A stretch of 64,000 nt of DNA. Origin: Mesodorylaimus sp. YZB2_4. Lineage: Eukaryota; Nematoda; Enoplea; Dorylaimida; Dorylaimidae. The position numbers and the translations under genes were made by a program. The stretch is from positions 739,972-803,971 of the forward strand of contig JASANH010000735.1 in NCBI GenBank assembly GCA_030248295.1, given 5' to 3'. This document shows, one piece after another, positions 3,719 to 62,480 of this stretch (positions are counted from its first letter, which is position 1; each line of letters opens with the position of its first letter). The notes beneath the pieces are model-generated. The model saw nothing but the letters and a program-made list of their open reading frames with translations, did not search any database and was not told the DNA's origin.

Positions 3719-6700
3719 ATGGCGTCGGCCGGACCCGACCCCAACGATGATCGAATGATGGTGGACGAGGTGAGTTGCTGTTCGTTGCCATATTTGCAGG
3801 TGGCCAAACTGTCCTCGTTGCAGGCGGAAGGGTGCAGCAGAGACGGCGGCGAGAGCGGCAGCGATGCTGGCGAGTTGGACGAGGAGACGATGGAGGCGAT
3901 CGCCAGCGGCAGTTTGCCACTGTCGGCCGAGACGTGCATCGCCCTGAACCTGGTTTATCAGGAAATATTGCAGTCGTACATGCACCGCATCGAGGCCTCG
4001 CTGGCGCAGAATCGTGAAAGACAGGTGAATCGTACTGGCACTGGTTATGCCATCATAGATTACACATCTCCGTTTTAGCGAGCTTTTGAGCAAGAATTGC
4101 GAAACTATTCCGGAGAAGGTTCTACGAAGCACGAGGGTCGTGTCCCTGTTCTCACCTACATTGCGCCCTATTTCCGAGACTCGGCTGGTGTGGTAAGCGA
4201 TGATGGTCTGGCCGGACTGGGTGCACTCGCAATCCCCTATCGCTTAGGCCCCGATGAAGAACGCGGACGCGAAGGCCAAAGTGGACGAGCTGAATATTCT
4301 GGTCGAACCACCTCGAAAATGGAACCCGGCCGAGAAGAGGCAGCTGCTGAGGGCGGTCGAAGAGTGCATCGTCCAAATCGATACCGTGTCCTTGGCCAAC
4401 AAGTAACCAGTCTCCACTGCATTTTCTGCGTAGTCAAGCCGTGTGTATTTTTAGACGACATTACGCTGTCGAAAAATTGAAAATTACTAGCGATCCAACA
4501 GAATTGACGGCATTGACATTGGAGATTAGCGAACTGGACAAAAAAGTGGAGGCGATAAGGTAAGGCGAGGCGGTGGAATGAAATCGAAACGGGACCCTCC
4601 TCTGTTCCAGGAGCAAGGTGAATCTCTTGACCGAGCCCAGAGAAAAATTCGATGCCATCGATTGGGATCAAATTTCTGTGACTGCGGTAAGTCCGTGTGC
4701 TCCGTGTCCTCGTCCACTGGCTGATTACTCCTCTGATTTTAGTTCAAAGGCACACGAAGCCCGATGGAGTGTCGATTGGCTTGGACGAACGATGTGGATC
4801 CCGTTTTGAATCAAAATCCGACCTGGAGCGCGGCCGAGCTGGAAAAACTGTGTTATTTGGCGGAAAAATACGAATTTCGGGATTGGCAAAATATAGCACG
4901 CGATCTGGGAGTAAGTTCTGTGCAAATCCCCATTTTGGATCTTTTAGTTGAATTGTTTGTTTAGACTCGTCGAACTGCGTTTCAATGTTTCGAAAAATAC
5001 CAAAGCGAGTGCAATGCGGAACTTACTAAAAAGTATGTTTTTGCTGGGTTGGAGGGCTGATTTTGCAGGAATGTCGTGTTTTAGAATGTGGACGAAGGAA
5101 GACGACGACGCGTTGAGGCTGGCCGTGCAGAGTTGTCGGCAAGGGGACCACATCCCGTGGGACCAGGTGACGTCCGCTCTCGAGGGATTCACGTCGCAGC
5201 AGTGCAAACGACGTTGGTCGAACGTGCTGGCGCCGGGACTGAAACGCGGGTGCTGGAATGAGGAGGAGGATCTGGTAGGTGCTTGCATAGATCGACACTG
5301 AAAGACCGAGCAGTTAGCTGTGGCGAGTGGGCTTTTTTTATTGAAAGTTGAAAGTCAGTCCTTTGGCCCTTTTCCCAATAAGGGGTCGGTCTGATTCATT
5401 CATCGGGGGTATTTCTTTTCGGGCTACTTATTTGAGGCCCCATCAAAGTCGGCCCCACAACTTGATGCCTGTCTGGCTGAGCCCTGGTGCTTTGTAGTTG
5501 TTGCTGGCGGCCGTCGAGAAACACGGTTCGAAGAACTGGCGTCGAGTGGCCGAGCAAGTGCCTGGCCGGACGGCGGTGCAGTGTCGGGAACGGTGGTCGA
5601 CGGTGCTGGCATCGGGGCACAGGACGGGGCCGTGGACGCCCGAGGAGGACGCCTTGCTGATGGAGGGCGTCAAACAGTTCGGGCGCGGACAGTGGGTCAG
5701 GATCGCTCAGCTGGTGGAAGGGCGTCAGGCCAGTTCGTGCAAGGTGCGGTATCGGACATTGGAGAAGAGGGCTGCGGCGGTGAGTGCACTCTTGTTTCCG
5801 GGTGTCCGCCTGTGATCAGTCGATTCGTTTTTCAGGAGGGGACTCTGATGCTGGGAGTGCCGAGTGTCAACGACACGAATGTGAAACGAATTCAGCGACT
5901 TCGCGAGAGGAACGTGCGGGTTGTGGAAACGTACACGCGACTGGTCGGCCGTGCGCCTATCCTTAAGTCGTACGACACTGTTGATGCCGAGAAAGTGCTG
6001 CGTCCGCTGCCCGTAAGTGCTCGTGGCCCGAACGTGTAGTCGACAGCCGAGTGCCGGTTCCTTTTCAGCCCGACATACAAGAAATGCTCAAGGAGAAACT
6101 GATGGCGGTCAGACGATGCATAGCCGCGACGGCCTCGGCGGACAGCATGTCTCGCAGACGGAATCGTCTGCTGGGAATGATGCGGGCTCGCACGGCCGAT
6201 GGCGAAGCGGATCAGTTTCGCGACGTATTGGTTCAGGCGATGCCAGTTCGAGTGTACGGATCGACGAGACCAGTCAAGGCGTTGGCGGACATGATTGCTC
6301 AGTCGGCGGTGAGTTTTGATTCGGGGGGCACGAGCAGTCGGAGCATCGAGGTATCTTTCAGGCTCTACTCCCTCCCACCGTGGCGACCTTGCACGCCTTT
6401 CGCAACCTGTTGTCGCAGAACGGCGCCGACCTTCTGGTTGGGACACACCCTCTGCAGAGCCTGATGGTCGACGTCCTGATGGCCAGAGATTCGGACACGG
6501 GCGAGCATGCGGCCGATGTGAACGCCACGTTGACGGCCAGGACCACGGCCCCCATGCGCGGATATTTGGAAGAGCGAGGTGAGTTCTGGGCTCGATTCCG
6601 GATTGATTGACGCGTGCCAATTTTTAGGAGTTCGAGAAATGAATGCGGGCAGGAACGAGTCGTTGGAGGATGACTCGTTGTTACGGTGTCTCATTCCGAG

Positions 6701-19451: not shown

Positions 19452-21938
19452 TCATAACTTGAGTTTCCTAATTTCATCCCCCGACAAATCAACGCGTAAG
19501 GCCAGCGTCTGCCTGATCTCATTGGGCGTCAAGGACTTGGTCGATCCGCCAGTGGTCTGATAGTACTCCCTGGCCTCCTGGACACTCTCCACGTTCAGTA
19601 GCTGAGCTATTTGCGACAGCCTAGCGAACTTCTCCCTCAACGACCAGCCGGCCAGAGAGGTCAGGTAGTTGGTCAGCTCGCGCAGTCGCCTGTCCAACAC
19701 CAGGCCTCCCAGTCGGTTGTAGGTGGTCTTGAGCACCACCTTCTCCATCTGCCTGGCCACCTCGCCCGCCGTCAACTCGACCAGCCGCTCGTAGCCTTGC
19801 TCGGTGACCAGCGGTCGATAGGTGCTCAGCACGCCGTCCAAACTGGTGATTAGGTGCTCGATGAACGGATCGGCCGACTCCAATTCGCCGAACTCGGCCT
19901 CGTTCGGTGTGTGCGTGTGGTCGAGGAAGGCCTCGGCACCGGCCTTCACGCGAGGCTTCACCGCCGACACCATCAACGCCTCGACGGCCGATCGAGTCAG
20001 CGAAGCGAACTTGGTCGACACGTCGTCCATCTGGGATAGGCAGCTGTCCAACTTGGCAGTCTCCTGTTCGCTCAGTTTGCCCAGCAGTTTCTTCACATCG
20101 CCCGTCAGCGTGTCTTTCAGCGTTTTCACAAAATCAGAGCTGCAATCCGCGTTGTTCAAGGCCGTCAGAAATTCTTCCCGAACTTTATCAGCGCTGTCCA
20201 CACCACCGGCCCCGGGCATCTTGCCTTGCTGCAGCACGCTGGCGTAGGCAGCGGCAGCCGTCGTGTACGCCTCGGCGAACGACCCTGAAAAGGGAAAACT
20301 GCACATCGAGGCCCGCCCTGCTCCCCATTGCACTCACCGGCCGCGGGGTATCCTTGCTTGATGCGTTGCCTGAGCACTTGCATGTAGTCCATTTCCAGGA
20401 GGGCGCAGGCATTGTTCAACATGGCGCACACGCAATCGATGTTGGAACTGGACAAGGCCCGACGCACCGACTTGCGAATTATGAAGAACACATCGTCGAC
20501 CATGCTCGACGTCAAATTGCCGTGCCCACCCGAGCCGCCCTCCGACGCATCCTTCGCGTCCATTTTGATGGCTTTGACAATAGTCTCGCGCATGTAGTAC
20601 TCCTCCATGGCGATGTACTGGCCCAACAGTTCTTGCATACGACGAGTAAGGCTGGAGTATCGAACCAATTGCTCGAAACGACGCAGCTTCTCCCGCCTGG
20701 CCTGCTTGTGAGCATCGGTTTCTTCCGACATCGACTGCAACGTCGGCTCGATACGACGACGAAGAAATCTGAAACACGATCGAAATCAGGGAGAAACAAG
20801 AATTCCCGCTTCACTTACCGAAAATAAAGTTCCACGCGAGTTTGAAGTAAAGTGACTTCGGACAACAAGACGTCCAATTCCAAGGGATCGATCTTATTCA
20901 ACTGCGTACTCGACTGTTTAGCCGCCATTCGCGAGCTCATTTCAACGGCGCTCGCCTTTTTGTCGTATTGACGAACACGAATGAAATTGTCAAAAATTTT
21001 TGGCGCTTCTAAATCGCATTGCTGTTGAAGAATTTCGGCCAAAATCAATAATTTATCGGGGCCGTAATAGGACTCGACCAATGGCTGATGTATTTCCAAA
21101 ACTCTGGCCACGCCCTCCAACAACAAAGTCAACGTGTCGGCGAAGAGCACGTTGGCTCGAGCGTCGTCCCGACCGCCGGCCATCATGATCTTGTAATTGA
21201 CATCGGCAGTTTCGGCCAGTTTACTTTTCAAATACGAACCGAATTTCTCCAAGCCGAGTTGATGTTGATTTAAGAGCGGGAATAATTTAAAGAATCTTTC
21301 CATCGATGCCAAATCCCCGTCGCGCAACGCCTCGTCGAACTTTTCTTCCACGATTCGTTTTAATTCCTGTTCCGCCTGGCGCATCATTTCGAACTGGCGA
21401 TCCATCGATTCGTCAGCGCCCTACAAGCAAAGAGAGTGTCGCTGCCTGGACCCTGTTCTCACGCACTCACCTCGCCCGCCGCGCTATCGGCGCTGAGTCC
21501 GAGGACGGCCTTGTCCAACATCAGGAAACGATGCACGTGCCCGGCCGCTTGTTCAAAGTCCTCGCTGGCCATGGCGCTGCGAATGCCCTCCGTGCACAGT
21601 CGCAAGTCCAACGCGTCCTCCACCCGCTGCAGACAATCCACCACTCGAGTCTTGGCCAAATCCAAATCGCGAACTTTGCCGCTGACATTCTCGGCCAAAA
21701 TCGAAGTGGCCGACAAAAGTGAACTCAAATGCGACGCGTCCGATTCGGCCAAAGTGAGACGAGTTTTCAAACGGCCAAAAACCACGTTCAATTGGCGAGG
21801 AATATCGGCGTATTTACGCGATAAATCGGAAATATTTTGATCGATTTGACATTCACGAGTCCGACACACTTCCAATTGATCTTGAAGAGAAACGATATCG
21901 TTCGAAAAATCGAAATCAAAAATATTATCTACAACCAT
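19452..21938 (-). CDS. COG4: Conserved oligomeric Golgi complex subunit 4
   Basis: A lobe-A subunit of the COG tethering complex, which brings retrograde vesicles to the Golgi and binds Sly1 and SNAREs. It starts at ATG 21938 and ends at the stop at 19452, with four main exons and short introns. The protein is about 770 aa against about 785 in human. Diagnostic blocks in order: ILAENVSGKVRDLDLAKTRV, SEDFEQAAGHVHRFLMLDKA, MERFFKLFPLL, FADTLTLLLEGVARVLEIHQ, TSSMVDDVFFIIRKSVRRAL, EKVVLKTTYNRLGGLVLD and LREKFARLSQIAQLLNVES, then the C-terminal ALRVDL. These align with human COG4 along the full length. The start was chosen as the first ATG in frame before the conserved coil. No truncation is seen. 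Confidence 0.93.
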
Positions 21939-23099: not shown

Positions 23100-26000
23100 T
23101 CAGACGGCTGTCGATCCGTACCCCTTGCCCGAGTCCCCGCTGCTGTTCACTGCACTGCTCGAACCACCGTTGCCGCTCCTCGGGGCTGGCACTGGCGGGC
23201 TCTGTCGACTGGGCGCGGGCGCTGGCGACGGTGTGGGGACTGGCATGATGAGGGCCGAGGGGGTCCCCGAGGGGGCTTGTCGGAGCGGACCCCCCGATCC
23301 TGGACGATGCTCCGAGTCACTGGCCGCCGCGCTGCGATCGCTGTAGGAAATGGTTATCTCGGAATTGATGTGGAATCGCTGGGGCTGGTGGGGGGCTCCT
23401 TTCGGCTGGGGTGGAATGACGATGTGCTGCGGGATGGAGATGGCCGCCCCCTGCCCGCCGGTCCCCACTGCACCGCGAGCCCCCAACGGGAAGACGGGCA
23501 CTGCTCCGGGCGGCAGACGACTTCGATCGGTCGAACTGCTCGTTTCGGGTCGGGCGGGGGCCTGCTCCGAGGTCTGCGCCTCCTGCTGTTGTTGACGTCG
23601 CTCCTTGTCCTCCCTCTTCACATCGCGGAGACGCTTGCGAGAGTGTCGATCCTCCTCCGACTTGTCCTTGCGCCTGTGCCCGTGACGGCCATCGTGCTGG
23701 TGACTTCGGTGGCGGTGATGGCGGTGACGATGTTTTTCGTGTTTCCGCTCCGAGTCGGCGTTGCTGCGACTGTAGCCAGTGTCCTCCGAGTCGGACCCCC
23801 GTCGATGGTGTCTTCCCTCGGATCGGCTGCGTCTCTTCCGAGTACTCTCCACTGTCTCCGTTTCAGAAGACGACGTGCACGTGCTGCAACTGCTCGAGTC
23901 GCGTCGACCTCGACGACCGTGCCTCGAGGACACCGACTCCTTGGACTTGGACACCCTGCAGCAAACGGGCGCAGTCAGCTAGCGAGAACGGCCAGCACGA
24001 ATCACTTACTTCATGGTCCTTTTGTGCTTGTCCCTGCCCTCCTTCTCCAAAGCATCCAGCGACTTGCTCCTCGAGTACGGTCTCTCCTTGCCGGGCGAGG
24101 GCGGGTGTTCGAGCACTGGCATCTTCGGTTCCTCGGGCTGGCTCTTCATCACGTTGTGCAACCACTCTTCCGTCATTTCGCTCTTGGAGCAGGGAAATGG
24201 TTCGACCGGGGCTTCGTCCGCGCCAGCCAGCGCCCCCTGCTCGGCGCTGTAGGCCGGCGCGCGACCGTACGGCTCCTTGCCGTACATGTGGACACGGGTC
24301 TGGGGCGTGCCTTCCGGTTCGTACATGGCGTTCCACACACCCTCCCCCACTGAAACATCGGAGCTGTAAAGACGGGGTCGATGGTCAGAGTGACCTACCT
24401 TTCTTTTCGGGGGCGTAGGTCACGATGCCAGTGTCTCCTGGTCGATAGGGGTACTCATACCCAATCAACTGCTGGTTCTTCACACTGTCGTCCTCCGATG
24501 CAGGTAAGTAGCCACGCACAATCCGTCGATACTGGACGATCACGCAGAACAGGCAATACAGCTGGAAGAGAAGGCACGTTTAGAAATCGCCGATTCCCAA
24601 GGCCGATTAACTCACGTTGATGAAGACCGAAATCACTTCGACCACGGTCAGAACGAGCCAGTAGCTGGTCACGTCCTGCAAAGGAGAGGAAAGTGGGGAG
24701 GGGCCACTGGCCGATCAAGTGCACTTACCCCCGCCCACCACATCACACAATAGGCCAACGAGCAGATGATGGCGGCCGCGATGCACGGGAACCACGGCCA
24801 TACCAGGTACTTGGAACTCTGAAACCACAAGGAGTCATCTCCGCCCCCCAGCGCCAGTTATCCCACTCACTGTGTGTATTCCGTAAATCAATGCCACTGA
24901 ACCGAATAATAAAAAGAAAGCTGCTATAAGATTCAGAATCTGAATCACGAATAAGCCTGAAAGGAAGACCGGGTTAGGACTCGCGCGCTGGGACGAGCCC
25001 GTTCAGCGCCCTTTTCTGTTCATCACTGCCAGAGCCAAGTAACAGCTCGTACAGTCTCGGCCCGTTCTGCTATACAGCCCCTTCCTTCTCAGCTCGTGCC
25101 AAAGTCATCATGCGCAAACTCGACGCTGACCCTGTTTGCTAATCTACCGACGCCGTCCGTGACACACCCCCCAAATATGCCCCCCTGAATGACTGATAAG
25201 CCAGTAAGCTCGAGTTCGTAGGCGTGTGTGGCGAACGGGTGAGCTGGGCCTACTGTAAGTCTGGCCGTACATGGAAGACGCGTCTAAAAATGCCCCGGGC
25301 CTTCTCAAAATAGTCCTACCATGATTTTTGGCCGGAGAAGATGAAGGTCATTCGCCGACGCACCTCCTCCGTCTGGCAGTAGACGAACAGAAAAGGGGAC
25401 GCGGGCGAGGTTGTCGTAAACACGAGGGACATGGGGGCACAGCGAAGGGCTGGGACAGCAAGCTAGCGCACCCAGGTACATCTTCTCCTTGGGCGTCATC
25501 CAGTACTCCTCGTAGTAGCCAGGCCACCGCTCGTGCTCCGGCTTCCACACGCCGAAGTTGGGTCCGAGTCGGTCATTGGCCGCCTTGTCCTTCAGCCATT
25601 TGATTATGTCCGTTTGCCAGCCGAATAAGGCCAATTGACACAAAGAGAACATCTGCACAAAACCAAGGCCAGTCAGATATTTCAAGCCAGTTTTCCCCTT
25701 TGCGTCGACCGTTCGGCTGGCAAACAGGAGCGAGTGCCCTCCCAGCCGTGCACGCAAGCTAAGCCGTCGCACCCGTGAAGAACTTCTCCTCCGGGGTGAC
25801 GTAGTACTCGGTCCAGTCGCCGCCGCCCATGCGGTTGTCGTATATGCTGTAGCCCCAGTAGGAGGGCAGTCGGCGATTGGCCGTCTTGTCCCTCTCGAAC
25901 TTGATGATGGCCGTTTGCCAGCCGAATATGGCCATCTGGATTATGGAGAAGACCTAGAACGCACAGTCCTAAGCGAGGCACCGGGGGAGGACGGGGACCC

Positions 26001-26638
26001 ATTCGGCTGGCAAACGGGTCAGCCCTTCGCTGCGCCCCACCGCCCATCGGCCAGTACCCTGCGTGATGTCCTGCGTCCTCTTCACGTCCCGATTGCGTGC
26101 GCAGGGACAGTAGTCCTGGCAGTTGAGGAAGTCGTGGAATAGAACAACCCGGCATTCACTCAAAATGTACGTTTGCCAGCCGAACAGGCCCAACTGCGTC
26201 AGGGAGAATATCTGAAAGGCACGGTCGTCACACGGGCAAGCGAGCAGCAGCGGAGGCGAGGGGACGAGGGGAGCGGAGGAAAGAGTCGTACCGACGAGGA
26301 TGTGCTCTCCACCCGAGTACCGAGTGTACGTCTGGCAGGGACAATAGTCAGGGCAATAATAGGTCATGCGCGAGGTCAAAGTGTACCGACAGTCATTGAT
26401 AACAGTCGTCTGCCAACTGAAAATGCCCAGCGTGACCACAGCAAATGTCTACAATCCAAAACCGATGTGAGCCCGGCCCCGATCGCCTCCCTCGCCGCCG
26501 ATGAGCTCGGTCGTGTCCGCCCAGTTGCTCGGGGCAATCGAGCGGGCACGAGAGAACACGACTTACCAGCGTCCAGATGCCCACGGTCACACATCCGTCC
26601 TTTAAGTTCCAACAGTAACACGGGTTAAAGCCGGCCAT
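23100..26638 (-). CDS. Four-TM protein with a cassette of four mutually exclusive second exons and a charged tail
   Basis: Constant exon 1 (26638-26567) encodes MAGFNPCYCWNLKDGCVTV. One of four alternative second exons follows (separate entries). Then come constant exons 24956-24871 (LFVIQILNLIAAFFLLFGS), about 24822-24729 (AAIICSLAYCVMWWAG), about 24676-24617 and further. These give four hydrophobic segments, the last reading YWLVLTVVEVISVFIN/LYCLFCVIV. The Cys-rich start plus four TMs resembles the arthropod tetraspan family that includes pasiflora proteins (DUF4728-type); this is tentative. The cytoplasmic tail is about 450 residues, ending in an Arg/Ser/His-rich block (RHHRRGS, HRHRHHRHRSHQHD) and a Pro-rich end. 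Constant introns use GTAAGT, GTGAGT or GTAGGT. Stop is at 23102-23100. The location is presumably a cell or septate-junction membrane; function unknown. Confidence 0.75.
25472..25652 (-). other. Alternative second exon d (181 nt)
   Basis: Acceptor TTGTGCAG, donor GTGCGC. Phase 0 in, phase 1 out. It encodes MFSLCQLALFGWQTDIIKW and then a Cys-free loop ending TPKEKMYL. It has the same length as exon c and is its closest relative. Confidence 0.8.
25711..25725 (-). promoter_or_regulatory. Intron c-d element complementary to the exon cores
   Basis: A 15-nt intronic stretch (plus strand GTTCGGCTGGCAAAC) is perfectly complementary to the core of exon b in the pre-mRNA, and 14 nt of it match exons c and d. 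It lies about 60 nt upstream of exon d. The role is inferred. Confidence 0.5.
25773..25953 (-). other. Alternative second exon c (181 nt)
   Basis: Acceptor GTTCTAG, donor GTGCGA. Phase 0 in, phase 1 out. It encodes VFSIIQMAIFGWQTAIIKF and then a Cys-free acidic/aromatic loop ending TPEEKFFT. Confidence 0.8.
26001..26017 (-). promoter_or_regulatory. Intron b-c element complementary to the exon cores
   Basis: A 17-nt intronic stretch (plus strand ATTCGGCTGGCAAACGG) is the perfect reverse complement of the conserved FGWQT-coding core in exons c and d, and 15 nt of it match exon b. It lies about 48 nt upstream of exon c. In pre-mRNA it could pair with those exons. The role is inferred. Confidence 0.5.
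26058..26211 (-). other. Alternative second exon b (154 nt)
   Basis: Acceptor CCTTTCAG, donor GTACTG. Phase 0 in, phase 1 out. It encodes IFSLTQLGLFGWQTYIL and then a Cys loop (NCQDYCPCARN) similar to exon a. Confidence 0.8.
26292..26448 (-). other. Alternative second exon a (157 nt)
   Basis: Acceptor GATTGTAG, donor GTACGA. Phase 0 in, phase 1 out. It encodes a TM start with GIFSWQT and then a loop holding four Cys (YYCPDYCPCQT). Confidence 0.8.
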
Positions 26639-26639
26639 G

Positions 26640-27404
26640 TTGATGGCGAGTGAGTGAAGTGGAATGGAATATCAGCTAAAGCCTCCTCATATCGGCCGGG
26701 CCAGTGACGAACAGTCAACACTGCACACCCACACTCATCGATTCGCTGTACGAATCGCGTTTGAAAACTTTTCCACACAGCGGGCCGACTGTAGGCGACC
26801 AGAAAATATTATGTACACTGGCCTGGCCGGGCTGCGAGAACGAGTTTGGTGGCCTTCGAAATGGCGGCCGACTGAAATTACGCCTGGTTGCGCGAGGACT
26901 GTACACACACCCCTTTGTTGGTGGTTCGTGCGCACAACAACGAGCGACCGACCAAGGGCGGCCGCGGGATACGCGTCCCTAAAAGGGCGGGCGAGGACAC
27001 GTTGCGTGTAGCTTATCGCGTAAGCACGGGGTGATAAGGGACCAGAGATACCCGCACCCCGTAATACTCCACTCGACACTAGTCGCTGTCGACTACCTTC
27101 TTCGTAAGCTGACTGCTTGGCGCAGAGCCCGCTATCGATTTTCCAATAGGCAGCCAGGTAAGGCCATACCTAGCCGCCCGACGACGGCCACGAATGGCGG
27201 GCGAGGAATGCTTGTTTACGCGATGTGCCACCCGTTGGATTAATCTAGCGTGTTGACACCGATGGTCACTAAGGCAACAAACCACCCTGCCCCCGAGCGC
27301 CCCAAATCGCTTCTGCATATTGAACCTCAGTTTGCAAAATAAGGAAATGGCGAGGAACAGGTGGCACGCTTCCCGGGCGCCTGTGCCTGAGATGCGAGCA
27401 AATG
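26640..27404. other. Upstream region of the cassette tetraspan gene
   Basis: It contains the presumed promoter of the tetraspan gene. No open reading frame here looks conserved, and no clear TATA box or repeat was recognised. Confidence 0.4.
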
Positions 27405-27565
27405 CTAGGCAATGGTCGTGGCCGGGGGGGGGGGGGGGGGCAGGGGTCTACCTCTCGCGCTAACAGGGGAGGGTTCAACTCCCACCTCATTACAAAATGA
27501 TTGTCAAATATGTGCTCCTTAGCCCTCGAGTGCTTGGCTATGGATAAAGTATGACATGACAGGTG
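27405..27565 (+). repeat. tRNA-derived SINE, copy 1
   Basis: The tRNA-like head (GGTCGTGGCC, interrupted by a long G-run at about 27,426-27,440, then the B-box-like GGTTCAACTCCC) is followed by the family body TACAAAATGATTGTC and TTAGCCCTCGAGTGC. It ends with the tail GGATAAAGTATGACATGACA. The same head, body and tail recur at 59.4, 60.8, 61.4 and 62.3 kb. The A-box half is degraded here. Confidence 0.7.
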
Positions 27566-27647
27566 GACACAACACATGCAATATGGCACACCCTTGCATC
27601 ACAACTGGCACTTTTGTACACTGGCACTGTACATATGCACAACGTGG

Positions 27648-29579
27648 TCAATCGGAACTGCTGGCCGAAAAGGAGAACCAGTCCGACTTCTGCGCTTGCA
27701 GTTCTTGTATGGCGAATGGCAACAGAGTCGCGGCCGAAGACAAGGCCAGAAAATAGATTTTGTACTCCAGGCATCCGAACGGGCTAATCAGGAATCCGAG
27801 CGCCAGTCCGACGGCCTCGCCCATGTAGAAGACGGCGAAGGGCGCCTCCCATTGTTCGGGGAATGACTGGTAGACCATGGCTGAAACGGAGGCTTCTGTA
27901 AGATCCCGTCGTGCAGCGCACCAGGTGGGCTTACTCTGGCACAGGGTCCTCCATATGCTGTCGGACATGCTCCAGGCGGCCGAGATGACGTAGAGGATGG
28001 GCTGGTCGTCGACCACCGGCTTCCACATCCACATGACCACCAGGGCGCCCAGCTGGCAGGCCAGGCCGGCCAGGAGCACGGTGATACGACTGATGTGGCG
28101 GATGGCGGCGCACAGGAACGCACTCAGGAACGTGCTCACCAACCCGTACGAGAACATTACGTAGCCGACCGTCGACTGCGGCGCCGTGCACGCCACGTAG
28201 GCCTGAAAGGGCGAGCTGGCGAGCTGACAGGACAGTCAGGGGGACTCACCTTCATGACGTCGCACACGAGGAAGGCCTGCTGCAGGCCGATGAAGACGAA
28301 CATGGGGAATATGAGTCTCATCCGTTGATGGAAGAATATTTGGGTCATCTCGGAGAATAATTGCCGGGTCGAGGCTGGCTTATTCGTCTGCGAGCACAAT
28401 TGCACTTTGAGTTTATCGAGAAGGAACAAGGCTAGCACGACGGCGCAGATGACGTTGCCCGCGTAGACGGTGCTCGAGTAGACGGGCACCACTTCGGACT
28501 CGGGCCAGGCCAGCACTCTGGCCTCATCGTCGCCGCCGGCGGTCGAGTTGCGGCTGGTGGACCAGCGGAAGACGGGCCAGTCGAGTAGGTCCGCTCGATT
28601 ACAGTATCGACTTCCACTCGATGCGCACTCGTACCACGGCTTGGTGTCGTTGCGGGCGCCCTCCAGCGCGCTGAACGCCCCTGAAAAGTGGTCGGTCAGG
28701 GCCGCATCGCCCGAATCACAAAGAGCCCTTACCCGCGGTGAGCAAGTGGCCCCAGGTCCAGCCGCAGGCCGTCAGCGTGTTGAACGTGCTGATGAATCGC
28801 TTGACCATCTTGTCCTGAGTCTCGTAGGAGAAGTAGGCGAACTGGGCGGCCATGTTGATCAGGTAGGCGATGGTGGCGTTCCACAACGGGCCTCGGCACA
28901 GGCCCAGCAGGATGGCCGCGGGGATGATGGTGTAGTAGTGCGAGTAGGCCAGGGCGCCGAGCAGGAGGGCGAACGGGATCTGGCACAGGGCTATGGTCAT
29001 CTTGTAGGTCAGTTTTCGGGCCACCATCGAGCCGTAGAAGCAGGAAACGGCGCTGGACAGTTCGATGACAGCCAGGGCCAGGGGAGCCAACAACTTGAGG
29101 TCCAGGGTTGCGCTCAGGTAAGTCCTCAGGGGGGCGAAGCACCCGTACGAACACATGTACGAGCAACCGAGTACGAGCACGTTTTTGATGATGCGGGCCT
29201 TGGGGGCGATGTTCCTCGTCTGCGGGCCCCACCTGTCCACGGTCATTATTCGGGCGGGGGCGTTGGTCGACAGTCGCGGTCCGCTGTGGGCGGCGGGCGG
29301 GGCGGAGGGCACGGCGTCTGCATCGGACGAGGGCTCAGCAAAGTCCAGCGAGGTGGCCGACTCGAATTCCGAGTCCAGTTTGGCTTGGCTGGCGGTGGTG
29401 GCCAGGTCGTTGTAGGAGAGGGCCGTGCAGGCTCGCAGCGGCTGCCAGGAGGCCCGCCGAGGATCAAAGACCAGGGCCGTGCCCGACGCGCTGAACACGC
29501 TGCGCCGATGCGAGTTGGGCGTGCTGACTGGGAGTAGTAGGCCGTTGGTGCCGCACGCCTGCTCTTCCGCCAGCTTCAT
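27648..29579 (-). CDS. UNC93-like multipass membrane protein (major facilitator fold)
   Basis: A member of the UNC93/UNC-93A family, whose characterised relatives regulate K+ channels (C. elegans) or traffic Toll-like receptors (UNC93B1). There are four coding exons with short introns. The start ATG at 29579 sits just after a TTTCTCCGCAG acceptor, so a 5'UTR exon exists. A soluble N-terminal stretch of about 130 residues precedes the TM array, longer than in human UNC93A. Family features: the paired helices VLVLGCSYMCSYGCFAPLRT, then LLGLCRGPLWNATIAYL and AYFSYETQDKMVKRFISTFN, a glycosylatable luminal loop after 28,730 (RNDTKPWYEC, TSRNSTAGG), and the second half FFHQRMRLIFPMFVFIGLQQ with VFYMGEAVGLALGF near the end. 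The product is about 640 aa. It is in a run of minus-strand genes. Confidence 0.85.
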
Positions 29580-30393
29580 GGCGCACTTGCGGACTGCGGA
29601 GAAAAAGTGGAATGCTGGTAAGTAAGACGCGCCAGCTGACGACCTAGTCGGGCCCGAAATGGAGGCTTGTCGTCGTCAATTGCTTTTCCGTTCTCAAACC
29701 GGCCAATTGGTTTCGAGCCGACACGAGTAACCTGCGGCCGAGGCGGAAAATTATTATACACGCCCCGTCGTGAGAGCAAAAAACTAAGCCATTAAACGAA
29801 CGGCCGCCGAGGCCCGCGCTCCCGCTTCGATCGCCTTAAAAGGACACGCCACCGAGACCGAGCGAATCGAAACGGAGAGTGGCGAAAATCGTTTGAAAAA
29901 CGAATCCACCGTGTGTCCCCTTTCCCACAAGGCCCGCCTCGACGAGCTTTTTTCCCGCTGGCTCCTCATCTTCTCATCGACGAGCCATAATGAAAAGGAA
30001 GAAAAAGCCAGGAGACGGGCGGGAGGACGAGTACACAGATTGATCGAATCCTCAACAACAAACCCCGCCTCGCGTAAACAAGGCGCCTAATGCGCCCAAA
30101 ATCGAGCGCCCAATTAGGCCCCGATCGATCGTGTCCTCCCGGCGCCCTAATGACGCAGCAGAGTGCCATCCTCCCGAATGAATTTAGGCCCAATTGCCGC
30201 AACAACCCTCGCCCGCATCACCTTATCGGGCGCGCACGAGCGCCCCCGGCAACCGAAACGCCCACCTGATTTGCTGGTGGCGGGATGCCGAGTCAAGCAG
30301 TCACCAGTCTTTCCTATCGGCCGTCACGAGCACACATGGCACTCACGCACACAGTCTCATGCGCCATCACAAAGCACACGGCACCAGGATGCA
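29580..30393. other. Intergenic interval upstream of the UNC93-like gene
   Basis: GC-rich, with no supportable gene. It carries the 5'UTR exon and promoter of the UNC93-like gene and the 3' flank of STAT. Several short ATTAGGCGC-like words recur around 30,085-30,150, without a clear pattern. Confidence 0.35.
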
Positions 30394-54477: not shown

Positions 54478-54538
54478 TGCTACCCGTGGTATTCACAAAC
54501 GGCCCGGAAAGGGACGTTTGTGAATACCACGGGTAGCA
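54478..54538. repeat. Perfect 24-bp inverted repeat with a 13-nt loop
   Basis: The arms 54478-54501 and 54515-54538 are exact reverse complements (core CCGTGGTATTCACAAACG), separated by GCCCGGAAAGGGA. It lies exactly where the Gypsy coding similarity stops. Confidence 0.9.
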
Positions 54539-59690: not shown

Positions 59691-60694
59691 TTTCTGAACT
59701 TACCGTTGCCCTGCGAGGAATTGTAAATTTTCTGGCTCTGACTTTGACAGTGATCGGACAAAAAATTTTGCCGGCACCAGCAACAAAGCTTCTCTGTGTT
59801 TGCAATTTTACCAAGAAAATTTACCACAGCTGACGATTTCCTGGCATTACATGGAATTTCACGGGCAGCCCAAGAAACCAAATTTTAATCAAGCTCAAAA
59901 AGATATGCATAGCTGTTTTCACGGCTTTGGGAAAACTAGAGGAGCTGACACCCATTGAAAATCAAAAATGGATCCCATTCATTCGTTGTAACATCAATTC
60001 CTGTTCCAAGTGCCTGCCCCATAATCCATTTCTTTCCCTCTGTTATCTGAGGAAAGGCGCTCTACCATGCTAAAAGTGGCTGGTACAGCCAGAATATCTC
60101 GCGCCAATGAGGCCGAGCTTGGATATGAACGCATGGGAGGAGATAGGGATGGCCATGCCACGGATGGATGGCATTCGCGAGCGGACACTAGGCTGGCACA
60201 CACTAGTCCATGTAGCTAGGCTGGTAGGCTGCTGGATGAGTAAGACAACTGCAATAGCACATGACTCACAATCAGCAGGGGCCAGTTTCACAGTGCGATC
60301 CTGATTTCAGGACGGTTACAAATTCAGGACACTGTTAAGGACAGCAGCTCGGGACAACGCTGAGACACCAATTTAGAATGTCACAATAGCTGTCCTATAG
60401 GTGTCTTATCCGTAGATTCAGGCACGTCGTAGAGCAGGTCTCCTCTTGTTCCACAATTAAAAAAAGATGACTTCAGACATTTTAGCAGACCACGAAATTT
60501 AATCCCGGAAATAAGCTGGGCACCCATTACTGGTCGGAGTTTTTATCTAAATAAATTTACTATATCACGAGGACGCCTTGGCAGGCAGGCTGCGATACGT
60601 TATATGAGCTCTGTGAACGTGCCGAATGAGGTTTTTCAATGAGCCCTACCAGGTTTATTATTTGGGAATCCTCGTTGTATACACAAACTCTGAC

Positions 60695-60870
60695 CGTTAT
60701 GTCATGTCATATTTTATCCTTGGCCAAGCACTATGCAGCGCACTGGAGGGCTAAGGAACCCATATTTGACAATCATTTTGCACCGAGGCGGGAGCCGAAC
60801 TCATCGCTAACTACCTACCCCCCTCATCGCATCCCTCGTAGTGTTAGGCGCGATGTTAGTAGGCGACTCT
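60695..60870 (-). repeat. tRNA-derived SINE, copy 3
   Basis: Tail TGTCATGTCATATTTTATCC, body GGGCTAAGGAACCCATATTT and TTGACAATCATTTTGCACC, and B-box-like GGGAGCCGAACTC in reverse. The head is decayed. Confidence 0.65.
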
Positions 60871-61261
60871 CTGAACCACCATTCGGTTTTTCCAAGTCAT
60901 AATTTTGAGTCCACCACCAGAATTTTGTGTTTTCTGCGACTCTTTTACGGGATTCTGTACCATTGGATTATGCTTGCTAGTAACTTTATCACGCGTATGA
61001 GTTTTGATTCATGTGTGCCCCCTCGCGTCAAGTGCATGTATTAGCTTGGGTATGGAGTAAAATGATGATGATAGGATTCTGCTGTGATTCTGTGAATTTT
61101 AGTTCGACTGAAAAACAAACCGTTTTTGCGGGTCGAGAGAGCTAGGGAAAAGTGCCAGTCTCGAGACGCCCAAAGATCGCCAAAAAAGTTGCTCTAGAAA
61201 GGTCCGCTCAAAATTGCTTTACATAGATCAAGGGCAAATTGCTTTTCCCCTGGCTGCGCTA

Positions 61262-61446
61262 CTGTCATGTCATGTCATGTCATGTCATACTTCATCCATA
61301 GCCAAGCACCATAAGGCGCACTCGAGGGCTAAGGAACACATAATTGACAATCATTTTGTACCGAGGCGAGAGTCGAACCCTCCCCTGTAAGTGCGCACCC
61401 AGCGTGGGAGGCAGACGCCTTAACCCGCTAGGCCACGACTCGTCTA
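61262..61446 (-). repeat. tRNA-derived SINE, copy 4 (best preserved)
   Basis: On the minus strand the head reads GTCGTGGCCTAGCGGGTTAA (A box TGGCCTAGCGG) and, about 45 nt on, GGGTTCGACTC (B box), with a long variable arm as in Ser/Leu-type tRNAs. The body TACAAAATGATTGTC and GGATGAAGTATGACATGACA follow, ending in a run of about five TGACA-like units. No CCA-ready acceptor stem is visible, so it is a SINE and not a tRNA gene. Confidence 0.8.
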
Positions 61447-62244: not shown

Positions 62245-62325
62245 ATTCGTGCTCCTTAGCCCTTCAAGTGCGCTCTAAAATGCTTGGCTATGGACAAAGT
62301 ATGACATGACATGGCATGGCATGTA
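62245..62325 (+). repeat. tRNA-derived SINE, copy 5 (5'-truncated)
   Basis: Only the 3' body and tail are present: GTGCTCCTTAGCCC, GCTTGGCTATGGACAAAGT and ATGACATGACATGGCATGG. 5' truncation is typical of retroposed copies. Confidence 0.7.
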
Positions 62326-62379
62326 CTTGCGTCTTTAATTTGAGGTAAGCTGGCACTACAGTCGTCTGTACTTGTCACC

Positions 62380-62480
62380 CCGCCAATGCTGCCATGCGCT
62401 GTGAATTCTCGTCGTCAGTGACATCCGCCGAGATGTCCCCGATTTCCTGTACCAACTCTGGACCCACCTTGAAAACTTCT
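62380..62480. repeat. Dispersed repeat shared with 63.43-63.50 kb
   Basis: GCCATGCGCTGT, TCAGTGACATCCGCCGAGATG here; GCCATGCGTTGT, TCAGTCACATCTGCCAAGATG at 63,440-63,480. The lines before each (GGCTGGCACT/AGCTGGCACT) also match. Possibly part of the transposase-bearing element next to it. Confidence 0.5.

Follow-up and report, generated by a model that had tools for sequence, protein, structure and literature searches.

The gene described here carries a cassette of four exons that encode variants of one protein segment, and the best-supported reading, to which we give a probability of about 60%, is that these are tandemly duplicated, mutually exclusive exons, locked by the reading frame and helped by pairing between exon and intron RNA. 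The cassette itself is real; its mutually exclusive splicing, which we infer from the DNA, is very probable. It lies in a window of 64,000 nucleotides (the whole stretch of DNA that was analysed) belonging to a 145-Mb genome. The original prediction combined two proposals: mutually exclusive splicing, and a switch between cysteine-rich and acidic loops. The first stands as the best reading of the sequence, since the variable exons have weak donors, two of the introns hold antisense elements, and steric and U2/U12 explanations are disfavoured, while the acidic-loop contrast has to be given up.

The gene is on the minus strand; it starts with an ATG at 26638 and ends in a stop codon (23102-23100). 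Its exons, named a to d where variable, are as follows.

26567 to 26638, minus strand: constant exon 1, coding part starting at the ATG; encodes the N-terminus and the first half of TM1
26292 to 26448, minus strand: variable exon a, 157 nt, Cys-containing loop with 4 Cys
26058 to 26211, minus strand: variable exon b, 154 nt, Cys-containing loop with 4 Cys
25773 to 25953, minus strand: variable exon c, 181 nt, Cys-free loop
25472 to 25652, minus strand: variable exon d, 181 nt, Cys-free loop
24871 to 24956, minus strand: constant exon K, TM2
24818-24729, 24675-24616, 24561-24399, 24349-24010 and 23955-23100, minus strand: further constant exons

Joined together, these exons encode proteins of 606-615 residues across the four isoforms. 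The constant exons from 24818 to 23100 together encode TM3 with a PW motif, TM4 and a long cytoplasmic tail that is rich in Ser, Arg and His. Hydropathy profiles give four hydrophobic segments in each of the four isoforms, with the first extracellular loop being the larger one, and so agree with the tetraspan membrane protein that had been predicted. Protein searches of the genome with isoforms d (7 matches) and b (6 matches) hit this locus alone and gave no close paralogue elsewhere. The neighbours of the cassette gene are a COG4 gene (19455-21417, minus strand) and a gene for an MFS-like transporter (28719-29675, minus strand; its match is below the Pfam cut-off). Also in the window are Myb repeats in two adjoining open stretches (4948-5812, plus strand) and short related stretches on both strands (27272-27598, 60630-60899, 61112-61387 and 62259-62414) that are probably a dispersed repeat. 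COX1 has 15 matches in the same genome (contigs C73, C273, C741, C47 and others); all contain stops in the standard code, one stretch is open under the invertebrate mitochondrial code, and the matches are possibly nuclear copies or misplaced mitochondrial sequence.

The four variable exons sit exactly where they had been placed, with AG before and GT after each of them, and they are indeed variants of one segment: in 6/6 pairs the local alignment score was higher than in all 500 shuffles. Their lengths (157, 154, 181 and 181 nt) are all 3n+1, and each is entered in phase 0 and left in phase 1, again as claimed. There are 16 ways of including none, one, two, three or four of these exons, and four of them read exon K (24956-24871) in frame and free of stops: all four are single inclusions, as the original prediction would have it. 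Inclusion of a, b, c and d together, a case missing from that prediction, regains the frame of exon K but brings internal stops. Two of the double inclusions (a+c and b+c) are stop-free up to exon K, which is then read out of frame, with a stop further on. Only single inclusion leaves exon K clean, and thus the frame alone permits only one choice.

Two other ways of using the cassette were considered and rejected. Joint use of several variable exons is ruled out by the reading frame. Alternative first exons are, by eye, contradicted by the acceptor that precedes each variant at the homologous position and by the fact that d alone begins with ATG. A separate observation is that one open frame (26448-25969, minus strand) spans exons a and b and the 80-nt intron a-b between them; retention of intron a-b would, by its length, stay in frame with exon K.

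The cysteine counts of the loops are as claimed (4, 4, 0 and 0 in a, b, c and d). The loops of c and d had also been called acidic, but their charges balance: D+E / K+R is 7/7 in c and 8/8 in d, and likewise 3/3 in a and 5/5 in b. The actual contrast is between a and b, which contain Cys and have 38 and 37 residues after the core, and c and d, which are Cys-free and longer (46 residues). How the four arose is less straightforward. By local score the closest pairs are c-d (132) and a-b (96), while the ranking by identity is c-d (26/60), b-d (18/50) and a-b (17/51), and dS puts b nearer to c and d at synonymous sites (0.81 for b vs c, 1.12 for b vs d, 1.90 for b vs a). Because these orders differ, loop type does not settle the duplication history. 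The loops of c and d diverge fast (dN 0.53, dS 0.65). Exons b, c and d have the same 14 nt in their cores, Gln codon included: it is CAA in all three, a codon that makes up 3 of the 21 Gln codons in the constant exons; the core of exon a uses CAG. This identity, rare codon included, suggests selection on the RNA, with the caveat that shared descent may account for part of it.

Introns b-c and c-d each hold a reverse-complement copy of the exon core (the F-G-W-Q-T codons). These antisense elements are a new observation, absent from the original prediction, and in our judgement the most unusual feature of the cluster. The cores and elements are located as follows.

26171 to 26184, minus strand: exon b core, the identical 14-mer, inside the F-G-W-Q-T codons
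25913 to 25926, minus strand: core of exon c, identical 14-mer
25612 to 25625, minus strand: core of exon d, identical 14-mer
26001 to 26017, minus strand: antisense element 1, in intron b-c, perfect complement of 17 nt of c and d and of 15 nt of b
25711 to 25725, minus strand: antisense element 2, in intron c-d, perfect complement of 14 nt of c and d and of 15 nt of b

Multiple comparisons set this complementarity apart from chance. Among 17 listed perfect inverted repeats of at least 10 nt in 26700-22900, the six longest link the elements to b, c or d. The longest perfect inverted repeat of the 977-nt cluster is 17 nt, a length reached by none of 1000 dinucleotide shuffles of the cluster (two reached 14, and the largest was 15). 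Real sequence served as a further control: 5 of 305 overlapping window segments outside the cluster reach 14 nt, and all five contain the same 24-nt inverted repeat near 54.5 kb. That perfect repeat, at 54478-54538, is the sole other site of at least 14 nt among the sampled window segments. The best antisense matches to the variable exons are 17 nt for intron b-c and 15 nt for intron c-d (equalled by 0 of 1000 shuffles of each), and in the same-sense direction the two introns reach 6-8 nt. In introns e1-a, a-b and d-K the antisense matches are ordinary, with 611, 962 and 248 of 1000 shuffles as good, and pairing therefore leaves the exclusion of exon a unexplained. The exact 14-mer has 7 sites in the 145-Mb genome: three exonic and two antisense sites here, and two elsewhere that by eye show no resemblance to the cassette gene. 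The introns preceding c and d have little in common beyond the element, where 18 of 20 aligned positions agree. Taken together, the exon-intron complementarity is statistically secure, and a function for it is plausible. A further perfect inverted repeat, of 13 nt, joins 26032-26020 (intron b-c, beside element 1) to 25452-25440 (the intron after d), both on the minus strand; pairing between them would loop out c and d.

Folding predictions place two hairpins at these sites.

25610 to 25727, minus strand: predicted hairpin d, 25727-25694 with 25649-25610, 33 pairs in the centroid
25911 to 26017, minus strand: predicted hairpin c, about 20 core-stem pairs from 26017, around the 3′ splice site of c

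For hairpin d the predicted energy is -55.7 kcal/mol; its 200 shuffles average -35.3, and none of them is as stable (z -5.6). Shuffling the element alone gives z -7.2, again with none of 300 as stable. In this model the 3′ splice site of d sits in a 44-nt loop. Hairpin c stands out from chance only modestly (z -1.6, with its stability reached by 11 of 200 shuffles; z -3.1 and 2 of 300 with only the element shuffled), and three other folded stretches are no stabler than their shuffles (z -0.5, +0.2 and +2.2). The predicted fold of 26566-25400 includes both hairpins. Over 26211-25472 the minimum is -301.2 kcal/mol, with d paired to element 2, and other arrangements come close: -300.3 for b/element 1 plus d/element 2, -299.0 for b/element 2, -296.1 for c/element 1 plus d/element 2, and down to -292.0 for the other pairings tried. 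The eleven forced pairings exceed the minimum by between 0 and about 9 kcal/mol, and keeping both elements unpaired gives -273.1, a cost of 28 kcal/mol. Near-equal alternative folds are a requirement of a competing-structure switch, although predicted folding is no proof of one. The models did not support masking of the 3′ splice site at d, where mean pairing is 0.46-0.50, below most constant exons; at c it is 0.63-0.80 depending on the flank, and above the constant exons with longer flanks only. Duplex energies of whole exons vs introns were uninformative, and the search for known RNA families gave one match up to E = 1, which is far below cut-off, off the cluster and on the opposite strand.

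The splice sites of the variable exons are also distinctive. Of 9 consensus places, the donors of a, b, c and d match 5, 5, 6 and 5, and each of them has C at +4; those of the six constant exons that have a donor match 7-8. The two sets of scores do not overlap, which for 4 vs 6 values corresponds to an exact one-sided rank probability of 1 in 210 (worked out by hand, for a comparison picked after the sites had been seen).

These features could work together in two layers, so that one exon choice would supply the outer half of TM1 and the entire first extracellular loop of a protein whose remainder is constant. The first layer is the frame lock: given the 3n+1 lengths and the phases (0 in, 1 out), an open frame comes from single inclusion only, and other products, which stop early, would probably be degraded. 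In the second layer, each element would pair with the identical coding core of b, c or d, with one partner at a time; the complementarity is a property of the sequence and its role in splicing is our proposal. An element paired with the exon downstream would enclose the 3′ splice site of that exon in a hairpin, and element 1 paired with exon b would enclose the 5′ splice site of b. Either pairing would hinder the joining of adjacent variable exons, and which of b, c and d is used would then depend on unfolding or partner exchange. Their weak donors would make all four exons dependent on such regulation, and exon a, without an element, would rely on the frame lock and on protein factors. We tentatively suggest, as an idea with a reasonable chance of being right but short of an even one, that the coding core is itself the switch: the conserved five-residue motif would be read as protein and, in three exons, also act as RNA partner for elements lying between the alternatives, which would invert the docking/selector arrangement. 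It would pick the outer surface of a septate-junction-like protein among four forms of two chemical types.

The alternative that survives best is that the frame, with degradation of faulty transcripts, and protein factors at the weak splice sites account for exclusivity, and that the elements are relics of inverted duplications and play no part. The frame lock is complete for working products, the donors are weak, exon a does without any element, hairpin c is modestly beyond chance and the 3′ splice sites are not clearly masked; all of this speaks for such an account. There is also a precedent: in human U2AF1, mutation of the longest inverted repeats upstream of duplicated exons is reported to have left splicing unaffected (PMC5224494). 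Relics fit the elements themselves less well. The introns before c and d are alike mainly at the element even though dS between c and d is 0.65, and all three cores have kept CAA for Gln, a codon that the constant exons seldom use. On balance we think this account rather unlikely.

A duplex between an exon and an intron, with the intron as editing complementary sequence, is a layout known from edited exons. The duplexes could then be substrates for A-to-I RNA editing that recodes either the Gln/Thr codons common to the exons or the beginning of exon d, with secondary effects on splicing. The 33-pair duplex of exon d with its upstream intron and the adenosines in the Gln and Thr codons of the core are compatible with this, but the c duplex is short, and one core pairing with elements across several tandem exons fits competition better; we regard editing as an improbable explanation. 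It is very improbable that the gene uses just one or two of the four, the others being decaying duplicates: weak donors on all four and the rapid amino-acid change between c and d could point that way, yet the open frame, the AG/GT borders, the phase and the core are kept in all four. Finally, exclusion through introns too short to splice, or through mixed U2/U12 sites, is hardly credible. The variable exons are indeed separated by short introns (80, 104 and 120 nt), but the five predicted introns downstream of exon K in the same gene are shorter still (49-54 nt), and all borders are GT-AG with no U12-type donor seen among them.

If the cassette is indeed one of mutually exclusive exons locked by frame and helped by RNA pairing, a barrier-type invertebrate tetraspan would swap its whole first extracellular loop via one splice choice, in parallel to claudin-10, which has two forms. 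It would also mean that the protein-coding core itself can serve in the RNA pairing behind exclusive splicing, and that RNA structure holds synonymous positions within a conserved protein motif. The cluster is 1 kb long, and these ideas are directly testable in a minigene. Within the literature searched, no report was found on DUF4728/pasiflora proteins with mutually exclusive exons, which agrees, as far as that literature reaches, with the claim that the cassette is undescribed in this family, and a broader search on mutually exclusive exons in tetraspan proteins turned up no paper that by its title deals with one.

Among known proteins, the Pasiflora septate-junction family is one of the closest in its features: it shares four TM segments, a larger first extracellular loop and a PW motif at the start of TM3 (PMC4582180). 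The last of these is described as the mark common to the family, and here it takes the form VWPWF, directly before the third hydrophobic peak. The end of TM4 reads VxSQYQ in Pasiflora1 and VxS in Pasiflora2, with the wider family sharing PW only (PMC4582180); in the present protein it is VIVQYRR, which keeps V and QY and lacks S and the last Q. Pfam DUF4728 (PF15860) scores 19.5-21 bits in the four isoforms, below the curated cut-off of 26.7, and on these features the protein is best called "Pasiflora-like"; a septate-junction role may be supposed by resemblance. A DUF4728 profile search of the same genome gave 22 matches, with 1 above cut-off and 0 at this locus; 9 of the 22 are on contig C21. 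Solved structures included no relative up to E = 1. There are differences as well: in Drosophila, Pasiflora1 is 169 residues long and Pasiflora2 is 258 (PMC4582180), compared with 606-615 and a long tail here, and the word "splice" is absent from the main text of that paper.

Claudin-10 offers the nearest analogy for the swap itself. Claudin-10 is a junctional tetraspan protein, and the exchange of one exon between claudin-10a and claudin-10b alters TM1 and the first extracellular loop and gives opposite ion selectivity (PMC5521874). There, two main isoforms are described as differing in exon 1 (PMC5521874), whereas the cassette has four internal exons. By eye the claudin signature W-GLW-C-C is absent from the four loops, and no claudin model is among the Pfam matches up to E = 1.

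For the proposed mechanism, the relevant systems are those under docking site/selector control: exons 4, 6 and 9 of Dscam1, as well as 14-3-3zeta, Mhc, MRP1 and, in bidirectional form, srp (PMC6071210). Our cluster resembles these in its homologous exons arranged in tandem, in complementary sequences that would compete, and in the weaker splice sites of its variable exons. In those systems the first or last intron of a cluster holds the docking site, and most selectors are intronic (PMC6071210). In our cluster the introns at these positions, e1-a and d-K, show only ordinary antisense matches to the variable exons; it is the coding core, present in three exons, that recurs as pairing partner, and two antisense elements sit within the cluster. 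These three exonic copies and two antisense elements are complementary beyond chance. Another parallel is exon 6 of beetle Dscam1, whose selectors may lie partly or wholly within the variable exon; in T. castaneum 26 of 28 include exon sequence (PMC8042237). One conserved docking site is described as serving that cluster (PMC8042237), while no single one does so here, and unlike in the beetle the exonic partner in this gene encodes the conserved motif of the protein itself.
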